This document shows positions 37,851-49,063 of a stretch of DNA of 64,000 bases, in pieces. The stretch lies in assembly GCA_022822085.1 (NCBI GenBank), contig JAJECK010000113.1:1-64000 (forward strand), in the 5' to 3' direction. Made by a program: the position numbers and the translations under genes. The number at the start of each line of letters is the position of its first letter. The first letter of the stretch is position 1. This DNA comes from Candidatus Poribacteria bacterium. Lineage in GTDB: Bacteria; Poribacteria; WGA-4E; WGA-3G. The notes below the pieces were generated by a model. That model was not told where the DNA came from. It was given only the letters and a program-made list of their open reading frames with translations, and did not search any database.

Positions 37851-38594
37851 ATGAAAATATTGATTTTTAACTCATACACAACGGGACAGAAACATAAACT
37901 TGACAATCCTCTCAGTGCTGAAGATTGCAGTTCATCTGATCGTCTTAAGGCACGCATAAAAGAGTTGTGTGGTTTCAATGCTGAGGGGTGGTATGATAAA
38001 AGTAAGGACTACCGTTTACCTGCAATTGAGATGTTTACTGGACCTCTATTTGTTCAATTGCGTGAAGGTTTGAATCAGATGAGGGAACACGAACACTATG
38101 GAAATAATACCATTGATCTGTATTTCCCGTGGTATTATTGTCGTGTAGATGGCAAAAAGATTCCAGTGAACGAAAAAGACGTTGTTGTCCCCTTTGACAC
38201 TGCCCCACTTCACGAACTTGATGTGTTAGAGTTTGATGATAATGGTGTTCCTGAACGGACGGTGGAATTACTTGAAAGTTATGACCTTGTTTTTTCGTTA
38301 TTGAGACCAGACGATATAGAGTCATTGCAGCGCGTTTTTGAGGTGGAGCGATCAGTCCCGTTGATTTTCCTGTTACCTAAAAGTCAAAGAAAGGCAGTGA
38401 ATGAGGATTTACCGAATGTCCACGTTGTTGAAACTGGTAGGGATTTGCAGAAAAACCTCCGTACCTCAAATTATGCATTGAAGGGTGTTGTGATGCGGAG
38501 GTTATGTGAGGCTGCTTGTCGCGACGGTTTTCAGGTGTTTGAGGAAGTAATACAAGATCCCCAGCGGTTGATTGAAATTATACAAAATCAGTAA
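37851..38594 (+). CDS. DUF6884/YaaA-like protein A, divergent (likely catalytically altered)
   Basis: The 247-residue protein is a clear paralogue of the next gene: the ends VVMRRLCEAACRDGFQVFEE and FVFKRLCEAICRDGLQVFEQ match. At the N-terminus, where protein B has a strand ending TSCTDSKK, protein A has NSYTTGQKHK, so the Cys is replaced by Tyr. The SAGYGLL motif of B is replaced by a PWYYCRV-type segment. It begins four bases after the secF stop and lies 12 bases before B. It may be a structural partner of B in a heteromer. Role inferred only from context. Confidence 0.6.
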   Translation: MKILIFNSYTTGQKHKLDNPLSAEDCSSSDRLKARIKELCGFNAEGWYDKSKDYRLPAIEMFTGPLFVQLREGLNQMREHEHYGNNTIDLYFPWYYCRVDGKKIPVNEKDVVVPFDTAPLHELDVLEFDDNGVPERTVELLESYDLVFSLLRPDDIESLQRVFEVERSVPLIFLLPKSQRKAVNEDLPNVHVVETGRDLQKNLRTSNYALKGVVMRRLCEAACRDGFQVFEEVIQDPQRLIEIIQNQ

Positions 38595-38606
38595 AGGAAC
38601 AGATTT

Positions 38607-39299
38607 ATGCGAATATTAGTTATCACTTCTTGCACAGATAGCAAAAAATATAAGCCTGAGAACAAACTCCAGTATGAAGATTTTGCTTCTTGTGAGCGAC
38701 TTCGTAAGCGAACAGCAGAGCTGAAGAATTTCAAAGCACCAGCGGCAAAAATGTACACAGGTCGACAACATCGTCCCCTAATGGAAGGTTTAGAGCAACT
38801 TAGGGAGAATTATGGACCAGATGTAGTTGATTTATACATTATTTCTGCAGGATACGGTTTACTTAAGGAAAATAAAGTTATTGTTCCTTATGATGTTACA
38901 TTTGGAAAAATAAAAGGGAGAATCTTGGAACTCAGTGATAGTCTTCAAATTCATAATAAAGTAGAGACTTTAGTCGTTGATTACGATCTTGTTTTCTTTT
39001 TAATGGGTAAAGAATACGTTCAAGCATTACAACTTCCTTTTCAAGTTCCAGATACAGTCCGCCAGGTTTTCTTGGCAGCACCGAGTTGGAAGTATGTTTT
39101 TTCTGATCATTTACAAAATATACATGTTGCTTGTGCTGGCGTTGATTTAGTGAATCAACTCGATGGTGCTACTAAACATAATCTTAAAGGATTTGTTTTC
39201 AAAAGATTGTGTGAGGCTATATGCCGTGACGGATTACAAGTTTTTGAGCAAATAAGACAAAACCCGCAGAAGTTAATTGGGATTGTGCTTAACCAATAA
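38607..39299 (+). CDS. DUF6884/YaaA-like protein B
   Basis: The 230-residue protein has the three blocks I associate with DUF6884/YaaA-like proteins: an N-terminal strand with TSCTDSKKYK, a middle MYTGRQHRPLMEGL helix and YIISAGYGLLKENKVIVPYD. I recall that a YaaA-type (DUF328) domain is part of DpdC, which acts after DpdA in 7-deazaguanine modification of DNA. A TGT/DpdA-like gene lies at the end of this cluster, which fits such a role. The gene has AAAGGAAC upstream. Function is inference. Confidence 0.65.
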   Translation: MRILVITSCTDSKKYKPENKLQYEDFASCERLRKRTAELKNFKAPAAKMYTGRQHRPLMEGLEQLRENYGPDVVDLYIISAGYGLLKENKVIVPYDVTFGKIKGRILELSDSLQIHNKVETLVVDYDLVFFLMGKEYVQALQLPFQVPDTVRQVFLAAPSWKYVFSDHLQNIHVACAGVDLVNQLDGATKHNLKGFVFKRLCEAICRDGLQVFEQIRQNPQKLIGIVLNQ

Positions 39300-39340
39300 G
39301 GAACTTTGTTCCTTGAAGAGGAACAAATTGGGCTTTCAGA

Positions 39341-40831
39341 ATGTTAGTGGATAAAAGACTGACCGAAAAAGGTGTACAAGAAGATCTTCTTCAGCAGCCT
39401 CAGTTAATGATGAAACTGGTAGAAAAATCATTATTAGTGGCTGAGAATCTAAGAGATAACTATTTTCGGAACACTGCACATTTCATAAAAGATCTGCGGC
39501 GAAATATAGACGCTGCTAATAGTGGTAGACGCGATACTGGTATTCTTCAGACTTTTTCAGTCGCGGATGCTACTTGGGAAGATCTTCAAAACGAACAAGT
39601 AAGTTTTATTGACGGCGGAATTGGTCAAGTAGAATTATCTAATCAAGTACCTATCTTTTTACGTGTAGGTTCTTATGGAGTACGTGTAGGTGAAAGGAGG
39701 TTAGCTGAACGGGAAAATTTCGGTTATTATCCGGTAATCTTCGGAGATCTTGAAGGGGGCAGTAAGGAACGGCGAGACTTTCCCGATATCGTCCGTATCA
39801 CCGCTGAACTTTTAGGAGGTATTTCAACGTTGTATCGAAATCCTGATATAAGAGTCTTACTGTTTCACGGACCATTGGTTTATTTGATGAATGCTTATGC
39901 AGGTCATACCCCGTTTACTGAGACAGACATTGACTTGTTTCTGAAACATTACTCGAACGATAGAGATGAAGCAGAACAATTAAAGGAAGATTTTCTTGAA
40001 AAGGCTCGTCTTGATATTTATCCAGAAATAGCTGGTGGAAGGTCCGATGAGTGGTCAAACCGTAGGCTTTTTGAACCACTGTCTTGGATTGCTTTTCTTT
40101 ATAGAAAATTGATCTCTGTTGCACAAAAAAGAAAGCCACATCCCATCATTGCAGGAGTTATAGAACGCGGAGCATCGCGTGAGTTTTGTGAGAAAGTGTT
40201 GCTTGACCGTGTTTTTCGTTCATTGCGTGAAAAAGGAAACGAAGATTATTTCAACGATATGTTTGGCCTCACTGATCTCACTTCCCCTAAGAACTTAATG
40301 GATAGACTGGGTTATACGGATACTCTTATTTTACCTTTACTTCTTGAAACTGGCGAATATTCCGAACATTGGGAAATGAATAAGTCCAGTGGATTGGGCT
40401 CAGGTGAAATTAGACTTCCAAAAGAGTCAGGAAGTTCCACGGTGAACTTTTCCTGTTTGAGAGATAGTAGCCCGTTAGGCTTTCCTGTCATAAGAGGGAC
40501 CTATATTAGGACTACTGAGAATACAGAACCTATTAGGGTTGAGGTTTTTTCTAAACTTGGAGAAGATCAAGTTAAAGAAGCAGTAAGGCGTGTATACTTA
40601 TATTCTCGTCTATTACCCAATTACGGATTTCCTGTCGGTTTAGATATCGCGGATAAGTTTGCCCATGTGCCAAACTGGATGACAGAAGCTTACGCTAAGA
40701 TGATTCGTCACACATTGGGGGTAAGTTTACAAAAGGGTGAAATTAACGATGAAGATATGCGCAAAGTACTGGTGCAGGCGATCTATATGACACCCCGAGA
40801 TTGGCTTTTTAGACCAAATGTGAGAGAGTAG
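39341..40831 (+). CDS. nurA: NurA-type nuclease 1
   Basis: The 496-residue protein fits the NurA pattern: an early strand with the acidic triplet in VSFIDGGIGQVEL (about residue 88), a second strand VLLFHGPLVYLM (about 170) where many NurA proteins have DG, a GVIERGASREF segment (about 270) and a C-terminal block GFPVGLDIADKFAHVPN. NurA proteins are Mn-dependent 5'-3' exonucleases that work with the HerA helicase in DNA end resection. The next gene, 8 bases away, is HerA, the usual partner. It is longer than archaeal NurA (about 330-400). Confidence 0.75.
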   Translation: MLVDKRLTEKGVQEDLLQQPQLMMKLVEKSLLVAENLRDNYFRNTAHFIKDLRRNIDAANSGRRDTGILQTFSVADATWEDLQNEQVSFIDGGIGQVELSNQVPIFLRVGSYGVRVGERRLAERENFGYYPVIFGDLEGGSKERRDFPDIVRITAELLGGISTLYRNPDIRVLLFHGPLVYLMNAYAGHTPFTETDIDLFLKHYSNDRDEAEQLKEDFLEKARLDIYPEIAGGRSDEWSNRRLFEPLSWIAFLYRKLISVAQKRKPHPIIAGVIERGASREFCEKVLLDRVFRSLREKGNEDYFNDMFGLTDLTSPKNLMDRLGYTDTLILPLLLETGEYSEHWEMNKSSGLGSGEIRLPKESGSSTVNFSCLRDSSPLGFPVIRGTYIRTTENTEPIRVEVFSKLGEDQVKEAVRRVYLYSRLLPNYGFPVGLDIADKFAHVPNWMTEAYAKMIRHTLGVSLQKGEINDEDMRKVLVQAIYMTPRDWLFRPNVRE

Positions 40832-40839
40832 ATGAAATC

Positions 40840-42594
40840 ATGAAAGATAATAAAAAGGAAAACTCGCATGACAGATTTGTTGGCACACTCGTAGGTGAAA
40901 GTACTAGCAAAGAATTTCGTCTTGCTGTAGCTCATGAAACCATACGGGAGCAAGATATTATTGCGGTTGATGCTACGTTAAATACAACAGATGAAAATGC
41001 ACAACCAGAGAATTTACGAGTTTGGGCAAAGGTACAGAGAATAGAACGTATCAACCCGCTGTTTCCAGTTGAAGCAGGGCATGAACTTGCAGAAACACGT
41101 ACTGATCCTATGGATACTGTACTTTCTCTAAGTCGTGAAGTTGTGTCTGCCGTGTGTCAAGTACTGGGTGCTGAATCATTGGGAAATAACGGCACAGGCA
41201 AACTTGACACTTTACGATACCCTCCAAAGCCAGCTACAAGTGCTTATAGACCGGATTCAGAGGATCTTGCACGTGTTTTGATCGGTGATCTAAATGAGAA
41301 TCAGATCAGCGCGATAGATATTGCCACCCTCTCTAATCGCCCTGATATTGATGTAAAAGTAGATGGTCATTCAATAGTTTCTCGTCATTTAGCTATCCTA
41401 GCAATGACAGGGGCAGGTAAGAGTTGGGCAGCCCGACGAATTATTGAAGAATTGTCAAATAAAAATTATCCGATGATCGTCTTTGATCCGCATGGGGATT
41501 ATACTGGATTAGCGGACATTGAATCACTTCGCGATCGAGTTAGTCGTTATTATGTTACGCTACCAATCTTTGAAGAAGATGCTGATACAGTAGCACAAAT
41601 TATCAATAATCTTGGCAGAGATGAGCTATCAATTACAATGATGAATTTATTCTATGGCTTATTTGAGGCATCAAAAGAATTCTACGAACCTGAGGGAAAT
41701 GAAAGACAAAATAGAGTAAATTGGTTATCTGAGAGACTAAGCGATCAAAGGATTCTCCGTTTTAGTATTCATCCCGATCTATGGCTAATTGCCAATATTG
41801 CTGATGTCGCTGCTCGATCAATAAGAGAGGCGAAAAATGATGATAATTCCGAAAATTTTGATCGTTTGAGTGAAATGTGTTGGGGTAGCCTTCAGGTTAA
41901 TTTGAGAGACGCAACAACTCTGGACTCTATACGTAATAGGACCCGAACGGCAGCAAAGCACTTGACTAGAATGGAAACAGTCAACCGAGAAATTGCGGGA
42001 AAATCACAACCTATGCCTTTGGATCGAAAAGAACTTATAGAATATGGCAAAATCTCAATTGTGTCTTTGGCCGGTTATACTGGGGACTTTCAGGCTACAA
42101 TCTATAATCTGATTGCAGACGAACTGTTCGAAGCCAAGATTAGAAAAGAACTTGAACTACCTTTTCTTCTTTTACTAGAGGAAGCACATAATTTTGTTCC
42201 TGGAGATGGGAAGTCAGCAGCAGAGCGGCAGTCTATTGCAACTACCAAGCAAATTGCGCAGGAAGGAAGGAAATTTGGTGTAGGCTTGGTTATTATTAGT
42301 CAGCGTCCTTCCCGTTTAGATGAAACTGCTCTTTCTCAGTGCAACTCATATATAATTATGCGAATGGTTAATCCTGCTGATCAGAACTTTGTAAGAAGAG
42401 TCATTGAATCATTAGGTGAGGAAGAAGTTCGCTTACTTCCTGATCTTGATGTAGGTGAAGCACTGTTGTCGGGTCAAATGGTCAATTTCCCTATATTAGT
42501 CCGCATGAAACCACCAGAGTCTAAAGGTGAGCGAGAAGAAACTAATGCTTTTGAACACCTTAAGGACATTAGATCGAAAACCAGAAATCGCTAA
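40840..42594 (+). CDS. herA: HerA-type DNA helicase/translocase 1
   Basis: The 584-residue protein begins with a HAS-barrel-like N-terminal domain, then a Walker A AMTGAGKSW (about residue 190), DPHGDY, a Walker B LLLLEEAHNF (about 443) and sensor/Arg-finger blocks KFGVGLVIISQRPSRLDE and CNSYIIMRM. These are HerA/DUF87 signatures: hexameric ATPases that thread duplex DNA to the NurA nuclease. It lies directly after NurA 1, so the pair probably forms one machine. About 39 bases behind it is the relic of a TGT gene. Confidence 0.88.
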   Translation: MKDNKKENSHDRFVGTLVGESTSKEFRLAVAHETIREQDIIAVDATLNTTDENAQPENLRVWAKVQRIERINPLFPVEAGHELAETRTDPMDTVLSLSREVVSAVCQVLGAESLGNNGTGKLDTLRYPPKPATSAYRPDSEDLARVLIGDLNENQISAIDIATLSNRPDIDVKVDGHSIVSRHLAILAMTGAGKSWAARRIIEELSNKNYPMIVFDPHGDYTGLADIESLRDRVSRYYVTLPIFEEDADTVAQIINNLGRDELSITMMNLFYGLFEASKEFYEPEGNERQNRVNWLSERLSDQRILRFSIHPDLWLIANIADVAARSIREAKNDDNSENFDRLSEMCWGSLQVNLRDATTLDSIRNRTRTAAKHLTRMETVNREIAGKSQPMPLDRKELIEYGKISIVSLAGYTGDFQATIYNLIADELFEAKIRKELELPFLLLLEEAHNFVPGDGKSAAERQSIATTKQIAQEGRKFGVGLVIISQRPSRLDETALSQCNSYIIMRMVNPADQNFVRRVIESLGEEEVRLLPDLDVGEALLSGQMVNFPILVRMKPPESKGEREETNAFEHLKDIRSKTRNR

Positions 42595-42633
42595 GAATAA
42601 ATGTCATGTGTTATTTAGAGGAATTTATTTGAT

Positions 42634-42744
42634 ATGGAAATTGTTGCTGGATTAAATCTGACCAGTATCAAGCCAAGGCTATGGGATAAGAAGTCGTATT
42701 ACTACTTGTCAAGGAAAAAGTTGCTTGGAATTATTTTTAATTAG
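42634..42744 (+). pseudogene. N-terminal relic of a second TGT/DpdA-like gene
   Basis: The frame reads MEIVAGLNLTSIKPRLWD and then diverges to a stop after 36 codons. Sixteen of its first 18 residues equal the N-terminus of the intact TGT-like gene at 46628 (MEIVVGLNLTSIKPRVWD), and about 45 of the first 54 bases match. The remaining 300 codons are absent. It sits at the end of the first DUF6884-NurA-HerA set, where a complete gene would be expected by comparison with the second set. Confidence 0.85.
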
Positions 42745-42780
42745 TGTAGTTTGTTCTGGCCTACAAATAGGAATTACCTC

Positions 42781-43551
42781 ATGACAAATACACCGTATGA
42801 GGAGAAGATTTCTTCCAATTCACGCTTGTTATTTTTCTCCTATTCGTGAAGCAAACTGCTTACTAAAGACAAACTACCAGCATTAAAACGGTATAATGGA
42901 CCGGTATTTCGTGTGATTAATAAGTATATTCGGGAGTGTCTATCTGGAGGGCAATTACCTGATACCTACATATTGTCAGCCAACTTTGGATTGATTTCTA
43001 CCGACTATCTGATTCCTAACTACGATCTCCCAATGACGCGGCAACGAGTTGAGGAATTACAACAACCGACTTTTATCAAACTTGAGCACATTTTAAATGG
43101 GAAACAATACCAAGAGTTTTTTATAAGCATGGGAAAGGGCTATCTGAGGGCATTGGATTGGTATGAAACGCTTGCATCCAATGAACTTGACGTGACTGTT
43201 GCTCAAGGCTCAATGGGTCGCAAACTGACAGAACTTCGCAATTGGCTACACAAAGATTCAACATTATCACCTGATGTTAATACGAAAGATGCAAAACAGG
43301 GAAAGGTATCCCTTCGCGGAATTAAAATTACATTAACTTCTGATCAGGTAATACAGAAAATAAAAAACGCATTGGCAACGAGTAACAATATCCCAAAATA
43401 TCAGATGTGGTATGTACAGGTAGGGGATAGACAAGTGCCTGTTAAGTGGATAGTTAAGCAATTGACAGGTTTATCTGTGAGTACTTTTCACACAAGCGAA
43501 GCAAAGCGAGTTTTGCAGCAACTTGGAATTGAAGTTTATTCAAAACTATAG
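42781..43551 (+). pseudogene. DUF6884-like protein C with an in-frame TGA near the start
   Basis: From the ATG at 42781 one frame gives MTNTPYEEKISSNSR, then LLFFSYS, a TGA at 42847-42849 and, without frame change, SKLLTKDKLPALKRYNGPVF and 200 more codons to 43551. The two parts join into a normal DUF6884-type N-terminus, including GPVFRVINKY and ILSANFGLI. The strand usually ending in SCS-x-x-K here reads SYS-stop-S-K, so the Cys is Tyr and the next variable position is a stop. Translation could restart at the GTG at 42913 (212 residues). A C-terminal extension (about 120 residues) has a helix-turn-helix-like end. Open frame after the stop suggests recent loss or read-through. Confidence 0.65.
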
Positions 43552-43562
43552 GGGAGATCCAA

Positions 43563-45116
43563 ATGTCCAATACAGAATTGATAGGGAAGGTCATTTCAGA
43601 TGAGGAAACTCCATCATTTGAAACTGTGCGCATTATACTAAAGGCTGGGCAAGATGTCAAACCAGGGACGCTTGTTCGAATATCAGTATCAAGAGGTGGT
43701 AAAAATATTGACCTCATCGCTCGGGTTCGTAGTGCTCGTGAACATAATCCCAATGAAGGCCCAGAAGACATCAATGTTCGGGACACGATGGAGATACCAA
43801 GTAGTTATCCACTTGAAGAAGAGAGTACAATTATATACCGTCTTGCCGAAGCCGAATTGATTGAGGAAATTATTGATGGAAACATGCAATCGCCACAGAC
43901 GCTACCGCAGTCTGGTGTAGATGTGTTTATAGCCAACGAGGATGAGATTGTGGATACGCTCGGTTTGGTAAAAGATGAATCAATTGGACTGAGAATTGGA
44001 GAAACGGTAGCAGGGACAACAACTAAAATTATTCTAAAGCGGGAGGCTATTCAGCGACATCTCTTTCTCTGCGGAACGACGGGAAGTGGTAAAAGTTACG
44101 CAATGGGAGTCATTGCTGAAGAATTTGTCAAACGTAGATTGCCAGTTATCTTTATTGACACCCAAGACGAATATTCCAAGTTAGTTCCAAAACTTAAAGG
44201 TAAAGTTGTTGAACCAGGAAAAGATTTTGATATTCGTATTTCATCACTTACGGAATCGGAATTGATAGACTTATTGCCAGAAGCATTAAAAAGAAGTGCT
44301 CTACAGTCTGGTGTCGTTGGAAGAGCATTTGGGGAACTTCACACAGCTGCATCAAATCAAGGTAATATTCCTCAATTTACGTTAGATGATGTCCTTAGTG
44401 GAGTAGAGAGTGCCGCTACCTTACTAACATCCAGGCAGGGCGATGTGCCTAGCACAATTGACGCTGTCACGCGAAGATTAGAGACACTTCGTAATCTCAA
44501 TATATTTGGTGAGGGAATTAGTAAAGAAGATTGGTGTCAATTAATGTATCCTTGTCTAGCAATTAACTGTAAGCATTTGACAACAACGCAACTCCAATCT
44601 TTTGCAACAGGAATCTTGCGCGAACTTCAGACGTTGCGGCGTTATAAACTTATTCCACCCTATGTAGTAGTAATTGATGAAGCCCACCTATTTGTCCCTG
44701 AAGGAGAGGGCAGCCCTTGCAAACAGATTATCAGAGAAGGTGTTCGCATCGGTCGACATCACGGCATTGCGATAGTACTTATGACACAAAGTCCTGTTGA
44801 CATTGACAAGCGTGCAATTCGACAATGTAACACCCGACTTGTTTTTGCCTTGGAACCTGATCAGCTTGATGCCATTAAAGGTGTTAGATCGGATGCTTCT
44901 GATGAAATGTTGAACGCTTTACCGAAAATGCCGCGGGGAACATGTATTCTTTCTGGAACTTATGAAAATGTTAAACACGCAATTCCTGTTAAAATTCGAA
45001 AGCGAGATACAAAGGATTCAGAAGGAGGTGCTTCACCAGATATTTTTGCAGAAATGAAAGATATCTGGCTTGATGATAATGATGAATTGAAGCAAGGAGA
45101 AGCCAATGGCACATAA
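43563..45116 (+). CDS. herA: HerA-type DNA helicase/translocase 2
   Basis: The 517-residue protein shares HerA architecture but only distant similarity to HerA 1: a barrel-like N-terminal domain (about 1-120), Walker A CGTTGSGKSY (about 170), FIDTQDEYSKL, Walker B YVVVIDEAHLFVPEGEG (about 365), then HHGIAIVLMTQSPVDIDKR and CNTRLVFAL. Its stop lies 11 bases inside the start of the nuclease gene that follows, so the two are translationally coupled. Preceded by GGGGAG. It is the second helicase of the island. Confidence 0.88.
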   Translation: MSNTELIGKVISDEETPSFETVRIILKAGQDVKPGTLVRISVSRGGKNIDLIARVRSAREHNPNEGPEDINVRDTMEIPSSYPLEEESTIIYRLAEAELIEEIIDGNMQSPQTLPQSGVDVFIANEDEIVDTLGLVKDESIGLRIGETVAGTTTKIILKREAIQRHLFLCGTTGSGKSYAMGVIAEEFVKRRLPVIFIDTQDEYSKLVPKLKGKVVEPGKDFDIRISSLTESELIDLLPEALKRSALQSGVVGRAFGELHTAASNQGNIPQFTLDDVLSGVESAATLLTSRQGDVPSTIDAVTRRLETLRNLNIFGEGISKEDWCQLMYPCLAINCKHLTTTQLQSFATGILRELQTLRRYKLIPPYVVVIDEAHLFVPEGEGSPCKQIIREGVRIGRHHGIAIVLMTQSPVDIDKRAIRQCNTRLVFALEPDQLDAIKGVRSDASDEMLNALPKMPRGTCILSGTYENVKHAIPVKIRKRDTKDSEGGASPDIFAEMKDIWLDDNDELKQGEANGT

Positions 45117-46617
45117 TTACGATCCTGTTGCTACTACAATTTCGTACATGCTACGGTGTGTGGAAATTGAGAAGAATTGGGAGACAACGCTTCAGAAAAC
45201 ACGTGAAGTCTTACTGGAGATCGATCCACGACAGCTTTACTTAGACTTTTTCATCGATCTAAAAAGTCAGATTGAGCAAAACTCATCCGAATCTGAAATG
45301 TTAGCAAACTTGCTAAGATCGGTAGCTATACGCGGATTTGGAATGAGTATACCGAAACACATCAAATTTACTCAATCGGTTGAAACTAATGCCAACACAC
45401 ACTGGCAAGTATATATTGATGAAGATGCAGTGCGGGAACATCTTGACGCACATATCTTTGGAGACAATTTTCTTAATCAAATCACAGTCGACGATAACGC
45501 TTGGGGAGGGAACATTCCAGTTATAGGAGGGTCCGATGTGAGCCAGCATACGGATTGTTCTGTTCCGTTCCCTGGGCGTTTCTTTAAACGTCATGCCCCC
45601 TACGTCCTCAACAATGCGGCGGGAACATTACGAAAAATACAAGACGGCCGTGTGAAGTTTACTCCAATCTTTTATCCAAAAACAGACGAAGATTTAATAC
45701 GATGGATGTTGATTGATCCATCTTATCAAGAAGAACTCGAAGATGAAGATTATAGAAGATGCCTTGCTTCAGCGATGGATGTCGGTCACTATAGATTTGA
45801 TCTTGAATATCTATTAAAGGCAGACCCGCGCCCACCCAACATCATCTTCAAAGATGGTAGTTTGTTTCCGCAAGACGCCTATCTTTATAACTTCCAAAAT
45901 ATTCAAAATAAAAGAGGCGATTTCACTCGTGAAGCTATACGTTACCTACTTGATTGTTTACGTTGGGCAGATACAAGCAGCGTGATTTATTGCGGTGTGA
46001 CAAAGCAAGTGAAACTGAATGTTTATAGTGCAGTTGTTGATTGGTTTATCGCGAAGGAAATCGATTCTAATTGGGAATTCGGTAGCTATACATTCAGCGA
46101 TGGTCAAGCAATGAGTCTACTTTTAGCATCTCCTACGTTCGTAGCAGACAACCTGAAGCAAACTGTGACTACTTGCTTAATTCGTCGCTCGTTCACAACA
46201 AGAGCAAATTTAAACGAAGGGAACAAACTTGATAACCTTGAAGATTACTTTGATGCTGAACAAGAAAAGCACCAAGAAGTAAATATTGCCCCATACCGAG
46301 AGTTGTGTAAACTCGCTCACGTTTATATGTTCTTTATCGCGCATTCCCAAAATCCACAGCAGCAACTACCTCGCTATGAGGTTTTTTATACAGACAATTT
46401 CGGTGATCCGCAGGAAATAGTGCAGAAAATTCTGTTATCTTTAAAGACTTGCGGTTTTATGCTTGATCGCGACCACTCCTTTATGGCTGTCGAACCTATG
46501 AGATATTTAATACCTACCGTTACGCAGCAGGCACACCATCTCTCAAAGCAAGCAGGTAAGCATCTTGCTTCTGATATTGGACAAAAAATAACAGCACGTT
46601 TTAAAGAAATGGTTTAA
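45106..46617 (+). CDS. nurA: NurA-type nuclease 2
   Basis: The 503-residue protein overlaps HerA 2 by 11 bases. The NurA-like features are VIGGSDVSQHTD (about residue 145), IIFKDGSLFPQDAYL (about 245) with the DGS signature, a strand VIYCGVTKQVKLNVY (about 295) and a C-terminal FYTDNFGDPQEIVQKI region. It is larger than usual and differs strongly from NurA 1, so the two pairs are probably separately evolved and perhaps target different DNA. Its start is fixed by coupling: the ATG lies inside GCCAATGGCACA. Confidence 0.65.
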   Translation: MAHNYDPVATTISYMLRCVEIEKNWETTLQKTREVLLEIDPRQLYLDFFIDLKSQIEQNSSESEMLANLLRSVAIRGFGMSIPKHIKFTQSVETNANTHWQVYIDEDAVREHLDAHIFGDNFLNQITVDDNAWGGNIPVIGGSDVSQHTDCSVPFPGRFFKRHAPYVLNNAAGTLRKIQDGRVKFTPIFYPKTDEDLIRWMLIDPSYQEELEDEDYRRCLASAMDVGHYRFDLEYLLKADPRPPNIIFKDGSLFPQDAYLYNFQNIQNKRGDFTREAIRYLLDCLRWADTSSVIYCGVTKQVKLNVYSAVVDWFIAKEIDSNWEFGSYTFSDGQAMSLLLASPTFVADNLKQTVTTCLIRRSFTTRANLNEGNKLDNLEDYFDAEQEKHQEVNIAPYRELCKLAHVYMFFIAHSQNPQQQLPRYEVFYTDNFGDPQEIVQKILLSLKTCGFMLDRDHSFMAVEPMRYLIPTVTQQAHHLSKQAGKHLASDIGQKITARFKEMV

Positions 46618-46627
46618 AGGAGTTAGC

Positions 46628-47665
46628 ATGGAAATTGTTGTTGGACTGAATCTAACCAGTATCAAACCACGAGTTTGGGATGCATCAGACTTTACTTACC
46701 ATTTGCCTAAAGTAAATGCTGTAATGGTATCTTATGCACAGTTTCATGAAAGTCCAACCCGTCGCGAGCGAGCAATGACGAAGGGGTTGCATGAAAGTCT
46801 TGATATACCAAAACGTGTGAAAATTTACTTAGATAATGGTGCATTCAGATTTTCACGTGCTGGTGGTGAGGTGCCGCGGGATACCTATAAAGAATTCGTG
46901 AAAGAGGCAAAACCCGACTGGCATGTAATTCCACAAGACTACATCCCTACTCCGCACATGAGTGATGAAGAGCAGATTGAGTGTCTACAACAGACAATGG
47001 ATGTAAATAAACAGTTTAATTACGATGGATTTGTGCCGATCTTACATGTAAGCCGCTACTTAGATAATTACATTCAACTGTTTAATGCAGATGAAAAACT
47101 ACAGAATAAGACAAGTATTGCTATAGGTGGAATCGTTCCTAACCTTCTACGTGCCCCTAAAGCAATGTCTGGTCAGAAAATCCTTGAAAAAGTCTATAAA
47201 ATTCGGGAAACATTTGTAGACAAGAAATTGCACCTTTTTGGAGTTGGTGGTACATCCACATTACATGTCGCTGCATTGTTAGGAATGGATTCAGTGGATT
47301 CAGTTGGTTGGCGAACCCGTGCTGCACGGGGACTAATTCAGATGCCAGGAATTGGTGATCGCTCTATAGCTGATCTCGGTAATTGGAAGGTCCGTGAACC
47401 AAATACACAGGAGATGAAATTATTGGAAAAATGTCAATGTCCCGCTTGTAAGAAAAATGGAATTGACGGTCTTAGAAAAAACCGCACCGTTGGTTTTTGC
47501 AATCGAGCAACACACAACCTATGGACCTTGTTAGAGGAAAATAGATTGATCCAAGAACATTTAGATGCGGATACCTATGTAGATTGGTATAAAGACCATT
47601 TATATAATACCATCTATCGACCACTCATTGATCAACTCGTAAAAAAGCACCTTGAGCACAAGTGA
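46628..47665 (+). CDS. TGT/DpdA-like base-exchange enzyme (tRNA- or DNA-guanine transglycosylase fold)
   Basis: The 345-residue TIM-barrel protein has a strand-loop VKIYLDNGAFRFSRAGG (about residue 58) corresponding to the DSGGF site of tRNA-guanine transglycosylases, a GGIVPNLLR block, HLFGVGGTSTLHVAALLG, and GMDSVDSVGWRTRAARG (about 220), where TGT carries its Asp nucleophile. Near the C-terminus is C-x-C-x2-C-x21-H, the zinc site of this family. The DS-x-DS-x-x-WR form is closer to DpdA, which exchanges guanine for preQ0 in DNA, than to bacterial Tgt; this is by memory. AAGGAG precedes the start. Context with HerA/NurA favours DNA as substrate. Confidence 0.7.
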   Translation: MEIVVGLNLTSIKPRVWDASDFTYHLPKVNAVMVSYAQFHESPTRRERAMTKGLHESLDIPKRVKIYLDNGAFRFSRAGGEVPRDTYKEFVKEAKPDWHVIPQDYIPTPHMSDEEQIECLQQTMDVNKQFNYDGFVPILHVSRYLDNYIQLFNADEKLQNKTSIAIGGIVPNLLRAPKAMSGQKILEKVYKIRETFVDKKLHLFGVGGTSTLHVAALLGMDSVDSVGWRTRAARGLIQMPGIGDRSIADLGNWKVREPNTQEMKLLEKCQCPACKKNGIDGLRKNRTVGFCNRATHNLWTLLEENRLIQEHLDADTYVDWYKDHLYNTIYRPLIDQLVKKHLEHK

Positions 47666-47683
47666 CAGAATGGAATAAAGAAT

Positions 47684-49063
47684 ATGAACCTACCACCCCC
47701 CCTTACTCCCCCTAATTCACAACTTGTTATCGGTGAATCTGAACCGATGCAAATAGTTTGGCACCAAGTTACACAAGTCGCGCCGACAAATGCGACTGTA
47801 CTTATTACAGGGGAAACGGGGGTTGGAAAAGAGGTAGTCGCACAGATTATACACGACAATAGTAACCGCAAAGACCGCCTCTTCAAAGCAGTGAATTGTG
47901 GGGTGTTTTATCAAGACCTGCTTCAGAGTGAACTCTTTGGACATGAAAAAGGAGCGTTTACGGGTGCTACAAGTCAACGGCGTGGTGTGTTTGAACTTGC
48001 TGATGGTGGCACGCTGCTACTTGATGAGATCGGTGAAATGTCTCCCGAAGTACAGGTAAAATTTTTGCGTGTGTTAGAAACACAAGAATTCACACGACTC
48101 GGTGGAGAGAGAAACGTCCAAGTGGATGTCCGTATTATCGCTGCAACAAATGTCAACCTTGAACAATCAGTCCAGGATAAAAAGTTTAGACAAGATCTTT
48201 TTTACAGGCTTAACCTTTTCCATATTCAGATTCCACCGCTTCGTGACAGGCGCGAAGACATCCCACTTTTTGTATATGCTTTCATCTCGGAATTAAGTAA
48301 AAAACACAATAAAGACGTAACCGGTATAACATCTGAGGCACTTGATCATCTCAAAAATGTTGACTGGCCAGGTAATATCCGACAGCTCAAAAATGCTGTT
48401 GAGACAGCTATCATTGTAGCAACATCTGAGGAACTTGAAAAGAAAGACTTCCCATTAGATCCAGATTTTGGCCGGACCAAGTTGCCCGTTCAAATCGTCG
48501 ATCAACCAGGTACTTCCATTCAACGTGTTCTCCAAAACGGGGACACTATTTCATCAGAAAATGTAGCCCTTTACAAAACAATCTTAGCACTGATTGCTTT
48601 AGTATCTCGCCTGCTTAAATCAAACTCTACCTCTAACAATCAAGATAGACCTCCAATTCCCGACGATGACAATGAGTGGACACATATTGCTGATGCTGAC
48701 GATGCAGCCGATATTTTTAGGAAAGTAGTAGAGGAGTTTTCAGCGAATCTGAATATAGAAGGGATTGAAAATCTGACTAAGGACGAGGTTACTTCAATTG
48801 TTACATCAGTAGAACAGCAGGATGGTTCACCTAAGCCAGTAGAGTATTTGCCTGCCCTTGACGACGACCAAATGATCGGTAAGGTTGGGATGACGATGGC
48901 GGAAATTGAAAAAGTGGCAATCTATAAGACGCTCAGAGAAACAGGCGAGAATAAATCAAAGGCAGCGAAAATCCTGGGTATCGGTGTACGCACGTTATAC
49001 CGTAAACTTGATGAATATGAAAAAGGAATCGACGAGAATCAGGACACATTGAATCAGGAATAG
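47684..49063 (+). CDS. Sigma54-dependent transcriptional activator (AAA+ and Fis-type HTH, no sensor domain)
   Basis: The 459-residue protein consists of an AAA+ domain (about 14-250) with Walker A GETGVGKE, the sigma54-contact loop GAFTGA, a Walker B LLLDEIGE, a DLFYRLN block and [10 protein letters not shown], then a long acidic, low-complexity linker (about 270-400) and a Fis-type HTH ([20 protein letters not shown]). There is no N-terminal receiver or GAF sensor. It starts 18 bases after the TGT-like gene and is the last member of the island, so it may control that operon or be controlled with it. No -24/-12 promoter is obvious in the 4-base gap before protein A. Confidence 0.88.

Follow-up and report, generated by a model that had tools for sequence, protein, structure and literature searches.

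What connects a base-exchange enzyme of the tRNA-guanine transglycosylase (TGT) family, a YaaA/DUF6884 protein and two sets of HerA-type ATPase and nuclease genes in a single run of genes? This question is raised by a locus at 37851-49063 of a contig from Candidatus Poribacteria bacterium (GenBank assembly GCA_022822085.1, contig JAJECK010000113.1), of which positions 1 to 64,000 were analyzed and are referred to as the window. The run of co-directional genes plus a relic that an earlier note on this DNA had described was confirmed from the list of open reading frames (ORFs). All genes lie on the plus strand and are named by letter in the order of their start positions: A (37851), B (38607), C (NurA1, 39341), D (HerA1, 40840), E (42781), F (HerA2, 43563), G (NurA2-like, 45106), H (46628) and I (sigma-54 activator, 47684). 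The central part is an inserted block of ~8.4 kb (39318..47676) between resident B and the sigma-54 gene, and it contains two fused units. With a probability of about 60%, the genes of this block represent a mobile, Dpd-like self-marking restriction-modification system with new nuclease modules.

Gene order and cassette exchange

A scan of the genome collection, based on the first H alignment and run with two short peptide patterns, returned 22 loci in Poribacteria, Latescibacteria, Cyanobacteria, Chloroflexi and Acidobacteria; because such a two-pattern scan misses more distant or mutated relatives, the locus counts are no census. Together with the window, genome G019, a plasmid of Aulosira laxa NIES-50, one contig from a viral collection and two cyanobacterial genomes, 28 distinct H loci were obtained. 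The nearest named relatives of the window that carry the system are Candidatus Poribacteria records, and among 386 cyanobacterial genomes searched, five have H at an E-value ≤ 1e-20. HerA plus a NurA or NurA-like gene is encoded beside H in 19 of the 28 loci, and the order E-[HerA/NurA]-H is found in 18. The gene set that had been proposed from the window is therefore present in other phyla, with the same genes in the same order, and is more than a chance co-occurrence.

Three types of loci are distinguished by the genes that precede H. Type I has the order E-NurA1-HerA1-H (n=9: L019, L025, L028, L029, L030, L031, L036, L041, L042); HerA is split into two ORFs in L030 and E is short in L042. 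Type II has the order [E]-HerA2-NurA2-H (n=10: the window, L024, L026, L034, L037-L040, L043, L114). In type III, a Rad50/SbcC-like sequence is located before H (n=5: L021, L033, L027, L032, L035). Of these, L021 and L033 show E followed by a K1-K7-H run that includes HerA-like, Mre11-like and Rad50-like genes, while L027, L032 and L035 are cut by a contig or decayed. The remaining four loci (L044, L045, L046, L115) are fragments or contig ends. Of the 24 loci of types I-III, 21 contain E, whole or partial; in L027 and L035 the sequence breaks off ahead of E, and L043 is a type II locus without it. In addition, an E relic with NurA1 was seen at the contig end of L119 (genome G054). In L042, a K1-K7 cassette (sigma70-like, M78 peptidase, HerA-like, Mre11-like and Rad50-like genes; L042:11108-20578) adjoins the type I unit on the opposite strand, and this position suggests that the cassette may also act as an independent system.

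The phylogenetic tree of H (24 rows) requires five changes for type I and five for type II, at least four of each forced by well-supported branches, and type III (4 rows) forms one clade. The broken or partial H sequences of L032, L044, L045 and L115 are omitted from this tree, and L046 fell in no group. The tree of E (18 rows) likewise forces at least four changes for each of types I and II. The pairwise distances of E and H are correlated across 18 loci (r 0.868, with none of 5000 permutations as high), to which shared species history contributes; the E sequences of L032, L033, L042 and L044 were omitted from this comparison. E and H occupy opposite ends of the operon and kept these positions through at least four cassette exchanges. 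Most simply, the trees and gene orders would reflect an E/H pair that stays constant while the nuclease cassette between its members is replaced.

In the window, a type I unit that has lost H and is without a separate E precedes a type II unit. Unit 1 comprises the genes of the NurA1 nuclease (39341..40831) and the HerA1 ATPase (40840..42594), which form a type I cassette, and a relic (42634..42801) that encodes the N-terminal 56 residues of an H protein with 44% identity to H residues 1-56 and one TAG. It is followed by E (42781..43551), which is interrupted by one in-frame TGA, by the type II cassette of the HerA2 ATPase (43563..45116) and the NurA2-like protein, the presumed nuclease of unit 2 (45106..46617), and by H (46628..47665). 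The earlier note had placed both HerA/NurA pairs in one machine. This possibility was rejected, since H is directly preceded by a single cassette type in each of the other 18 HerA/NurA-bearing H loci and the relic downstream of HerA1 is what is left of the H of unit 1; the two pairs are alternative versions of one system in tandem. With a stop in E and only a relic left of the first H, the window copy is probably impaired. Against their relatives, the window genes A, C, D, F, G, H and I show ratios of non-synonymous to synonymous substitution rates (dN/dS) of ~0.07-0.16; for E, compared over its open part, the ratio is 0.29. These values are rough because dS exceeds 1 in all genes but E.

The predicted base-exchange enzyme, its partner and the cassette proteins

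H matches the Pfam TGT family (E-value 2e-14) and, weakly, the PADLOC model of DpdA (E-value 1.2e-6). Its structure model has a predicted local distance difference test score (pLDDT) of 88.0, and the 50 PDB matches listed for it are all TGTs. The best of them is an archaeosine TGT (Z 30.7, root-mean-square deviation (rmsd) 2.5, 312 aligned). H aligns to residues 34-360 of this 577-residue protein, so that the C-terminal part of the archaeal enzyme is missing from H. The residues D69, D104, D224, C269, C271, C274 and H296 are invariant in all 21 aligned relatives and align with what we take to be the catalytic acids and the CxCxxC...H zinc ligands of canonical TGTs. Structure prediction and fold search thus agree with the TGT fold that had been suspected for the 46628 product, and by its model H is a complete TGT-fold enzyme for which base exchange is predicted.

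With H alone as query, no relative was found in viral contigs, and the H alignment recovered a single contig from the viral collection, L046. In this contig (L046:9151-10374), H is encoded without E or nuclease genes and PAPS-reductase-like genes are found upstream; the H ORF opens with a 46-residue HerA1 match, as if left over from a type I unit. A tblastn search of H against phage records matched five Sulfolobus virus records at ~23% identity, and E gave one weak match to phage records.

The window E and its uninterrupted counterpart in L025 are 66% identical over residues 1-253. The longest ORF of the window E starts at 42913, and the encoded product scores 27.7 bits against Pfam DUF6884, below the 30-bit cut-off, which is passed by E of L025 (44.5 bits) and L021 (37.6 bits). 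E also matches models of DpdC weakly (E-value 3e-4). The structure model of the L025 protein (pLDDT 85.5) resembles AF0587 (Z 10.6, rmsd 3.1, 123 aligned) and E. coli YaaA (Z 9.7, rmsd 3.4, 143 aligned), followed by the next row at Z 6.9. YaaA and AF0587 were also ranked first by Foldseek, and the structural alignments span residues 8-164, that is, E without its C-terminal domain. As modeled, the N-terminal domain of E is of the YaaA-like fold class.

Of the two HerA-NurA pairs named in the earlier note, both HerA ATPases and NurA1 could be substantiated; the second NurA, encoded at 45106, is sub-threshold and weakly NurA-like. HerA1 matches Pfam DUF87 (E-value 1e-24, 88.3 bits) and PADLOC HerA, and its Walker A and B residues are invariant in the eight proteins aligned, which leave out the split HerA of L030. 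NurA1 scores 35.7 bits against Pfam NurA (cut-off 21), so that the pair of unit 1 consists of a HerA ATPase and a NurA domain above cut-off; Asp91 of its FIDGG motif is invariant in 9/9 sequences and its dN/dS is ~0.11. HerA2 matches Pfam DUF87 (E-value 5.7e-22), PADLOC HerA and, by profile, solved HerA proteins, with Walker residues invariant in 9/9. Three of the nine aligned relatives of NurA2 match NurA at an E-value ≤ 0.01 (best 0.00039). The DGS motif of NurA2 (D250-S252) is invariant in all nine, and the protein adjoins HerA2 in all 10 type II loci. Profiles of NurA1, NurA2 and E gave no useful match to PDB sequences, and NurA1, NurA2 and type IV NurA gave no match to plasmids.

Within the phylum, NurA2 was found in three of 84 genomes, each time beside H. 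The NurA1 query matched 14 of the 84 genomes, five strongly and nine weakly via type IV NurA; an adjoining DUF6884 or TGT gene or relic is present in 13 of them, and the last (G053) is cut by a contig.

Insertion site and resident genes

Of the 16 other genomes of the same genus with a secF match, seven were fetched. In all seven, secF is followed by a homologue of A and the sigma-54 gene, with no HerA, NurA, E or H between them; a B homologue is present in three, and the order is secF-A-(B)-I. DNA similarity of the window to these loci stops at 39317 (L123) and restarts at 47677-47711, depending on the genome. Based on these breakpoints and on the absence of the block from all seven loci, the system is an insertion, with A, B and I as resident genes around it. 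At the corresponding position in a different genus of the family, L025 has a type I unit (A-A'-E-NurA1-HerA1-H-I) and L095 a decayed locus (A-E relic-NurA1-HerA1-I).

A (37851..38594), B (38607..39299) and the sigma-54 gene I (47684..49063) had been counted among the parts of the system. They were rejected as members because A and I are kept in all seven genomes without the system and B in three. The reading of I as a sigma54-type regulator holds, as its activator domain was found by Pfam. Three DUF6884-like proteins had also been proposed, which applies to B (Pfam DUF6884 E-value 2.3e-9; PADLOC DpdC E-value 1.3e-12) and, via the full-length relative, to E. A has no Pfam match at an E-value ≤ 1 and is known only as a paralogue of B, its homologues matching both A and B (e.g. 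53-93% and 36-38%). The residents A and B are DUF6884 relatives that sit exactly where the DUF6884-bearing system inserts, in two genera.

Proposed function and related systems

In the literature on Dpd systems, DpdA is the enzyme that marks self DNA, and DpdC carries the DUF6884 domain (PMC11888242, PMC12839542). Starting from the computed folds and residues, the gene order, the cassette exchange and the insertion, we infer DNA as the substrate, preQ0 as the base, self-marking and degradation of unmarked DNA. H would replace a guanine of the host DNA by a 7-deazaguanine, with preQ0 as the most likely base, and E would finish or target the base inserted by H, which would leave the host DNA marked. 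The cassette between E and H, in its version NurA1-HerA1, HerA2-NurA2-like or HerA-like with Mre11 and Rad50-like proteins, would thread and degrade DNA that lacks the mark.

The supply of such a base was followed in the host genomes. A separate full-length TGT is present in 24/24 genomes searched and full-length QueC in 21/24, where QueC was counted only if the match spans nearly all of the model (any match: 24/24). A QueD-type 6-pyruvoyl tetrahydropterin synthase was found in eight of nine genomes searched, all except G087. Vut_1, of the YhhQ family, was found in two of nine, G087 and G099, and each of them has a same-strand copy upstream of E. In L029 this copy lies 823 bases away, separated from E by a C39-peptidase ORF, and in L041 it lies 46 bases away. 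YhhQ is described as the preQ0 transporter, and E. coli K-12 as a producer of preQ0 (PMC6884629). The pattern of QueC and Vut_1 across these draft genomes favours preQ0 as the putative base. A YhhQ search in the other fetched loci found none, a weak negative as the two known copies miss each other at an E-value of 1e-3. In G094, the gene before E is DUF366, encoded upstream of E in L036; DUF366 could not be tied to base salvage, and no paper on the family was among those listed by a literature search. A second Vut_1 gene of G087 (G087:C10:92432-92914) is located ~2 kb from the full-length TGT, in a host without full-length QueC or QueD matches.

Several results count against a self-marking system. 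All four H proteins tested fall far below the NCBI equivalog cut-off for DpdA of 200 bits, at 19.6-27.3 bits (26.8 bits for the window H and 19.6-27.3 bits for three relatives), and among NCBIfam models H scores highest with that of TgtA, a tRNA enzyme (47.7 bits). Three Chloroflexi hosts (G087, G094, G099) have only partial QueC matches (E-values 4.7e-5 to 1.4e-4), and for G094 the genome search gave no Vut_1 match either. NurA2 is weakly assigned, as the 45106 product scores 17.3 bits against the NurA cut-off of 21, and a profile comparison of the NurA1 set with the NurA2 set showed no relation. L043 has HerA2-NurA2-H without E, and G055 (L095:6619-13620) keeps the NurA1-HerA1 ORFs, with E broken and H missing. 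A nuclease kept without H or E should be costly, because unmarked self DNA would be attacked, unless E is needed for the attack or another DpdA marks the DNA; G055 carries a DpdA fusion elsewhere (L103).

The same decayed locus bears on the opposite polarity, in which H and E act on invader DNA, swapping or removing its bases, and the translocase-nuclease degrades the processed DNA in a type IV-like manner. HerA-NurA loci that persist without a working H, such as L095, are poorly explained by self-marking, and phages with 7-deazaguanine DNA exist (PMC6884629). We nevertheless regard this polarity as unlikely, given that the described Dpd systems mark self DNA with DpdA and a DUF6884/DpdC protein (PMC11888242, PMC12839542) and that full-length QueC in most hosts, with Vut_1 near E in two of the others, suggests a base supplied by the host.

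H and E could also modify tRNA or other RNA, with the nuclease cassette either responding to this or being a separate passenger. The closest solved fold is that of an archaeosine tRNA TGT, in line with the TgtA match. The separate full-length TGT of every host searched makes a tRNA role less likely, H is without the C-terminal part of the archaeal enzyme, and HerA and NurA or NurA-like genes accompany H in two thirds of the loci (19/28); an RNA substrate is therefore quite improbable. Little probability is also left for an ordinary DNA-end repair cassette that travels with a base-modification pair on a mobile segment and has no joint function with it. HerA-NurA and Mre11-Rad50 are classic end-resection enzymes, and K1-K7 is also encoded beside, and not inside, the type I unit of L042. 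The cassette sits, however, between E and H, whose end positions survive the repeated exchanges, and within the phylum every NurA2 found is accompanied by H, while DUF6884 or TGT genes or relics adjoin the match to the NurA1 query in 13/14 genomes.

A wider form of the self-marking system is more tentative. A deazaguanine inserted by the TGT/YaaA pair might serve as a self-mark on which interchangeable translocase-nucleases spare the DNA or stop. The shredders would then perhaps include three HerA lineages with NurA or NurA-like partners, a HerA-like protein with Mre11-Rad50, and UvrD-PDDEXK. Likened to the restraint of RecBCD by Chi, the loci could conceivably form a modular immunity class with a constant marking module and a swapped shredder, a reading to be taken with some doubt. 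If self-marking is true, base-exchange marking of DNA would not be tied to one known Dpd restriction module, and the mark would be a general self-label read by several unrelated DNA-degrading machines. HerA-NurA, debated between repair and antiviral defence, would gain a self/non-self signal. Since cultured cyanobacteria carry such loci, among them Roseofilum halophilum (type II, L037) and Calothrix sp. PCC 7103 (type III, L033) with loci that appear whole, the central prediction is directly testable by measuring their DNA bases.

Among known systems, Dpd (dpdA-C modification and dpdD-K restriction operons) shares with the loci a TGT-family enzyme and probably a DUF6884 (DpdC-type) protein beside DNA-degrading genes on mobile islands (PMC11888242). 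In contrast to Dpd, the window H is not a DpdA by the NCBI cut-off, which a separate fusion lineage passes; no DpdB or DpdD-K is found among the PADLOC matches of nine window proteins, and HerA-NurA stands in place of Dpd's other helicases and PLD-type protein. With H below the DpdA cut-off and DpdB and dpdD-K not among the matches, the window locus is grouped as Dpd-like and not as Dpd. No description of the gene set was found among the papers listed by the literature searches, with most subscription papers outside their reach; the nearest is BREX-Related Capture (BRC), whose loci encode a HerA/FtsK translocase and in some cases also a TGT (PMC12839542), both of which the window has as well. 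BRC differs in being described with PglZ, DUF6079, a STAND NTPase, DUF4007 and GNAT and without DpdC homologues (PMC12839542). In the proteins of the window, none of these five BRC components exceeds its Pfam cut-off; NurA and DUF6884, in turn, belong to the set described here.

The end-processing operons of archaea and Deinococcus-Thermus with HerA-NurA (and Mre11-Rad50) contain the same ATPase and nuclease families, which are here flanked by E and H, patchy in distribution and inserted. To our knowledge, the archaeal repair operons are without TGT or DUF6884 genes. In hyperthermophilic archaea, rad50-mre11 is linked to nurA and herA (PMC2288612). Cleavage of both strands of DNA by an archaeal HerA-NurA was reported in a 2026 study, which also suggests that the pair is antiviral (PMC12977600). 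HerA is also paired with a nuclease in the anti-phage systems HerA-Sir2 and HerA-DUF4297 (PMC12977600). The effector domains of these systems are other than those of the present set. We know of no base-exchange enzyme that accompanies HerA-Sir2 or HerA-DUF4297.

The fusion lineage is found in the same phylum, where single polypeptides of 573-641 residues combine DUF6884 with a TGT domain; in two of them, the TGT part scores above the NCBI DpdA cut-off (326 and 322 bits vs 200). In six loci (L096-L100, L102), NurA-HerA immediately precedes the fusion, with UvrD-PDDEXK added after it in L096 and L100. L101 and L103 have UvrD-PDDEXK before the fusion, without HerA-NurA. An unfused DpdA (398 bits) with an adjoining DUF6884-like ORF follows the same NurA-HerA in G016. 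Given the low DpdA scores of the H family, two different TGT lineages met HerA-NurA.

Further TGT loci were seen in other gene neighborhoods. A Deinococcus plasmid encodes a DUF6884 protein with TGT similarity near dpdE, dpdF and dpdH. Six loci of the same phylum (L087-L091, L093) contain a TGT-like protein (~400 aa), a BrxC/D-like ATPase and a protein of 280-318 aa, in most cases with a PIN-domain protein, and with a short DUF6884-like gene nearby. Two haloarchaeal plasmids (L022, L023) encode a DpdA-type protein of 967-968 aa (276 bits in L022) with DUF6884-like similarity, a second TGT and a BREX-type ATPase; queC, folE, queE and a gene of the 6-pyruvoyl tetrahydropterin synthase family are close by. 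A small plasmid of Picosynechococcus sp. PCC 73109 (L127) carries dpdA, a second TGT and a PD-(D/E)XK nuclease adjoining an ATP-dependent helicase, an arrangement reminiscent of the UvrD-PDDEXK variant.

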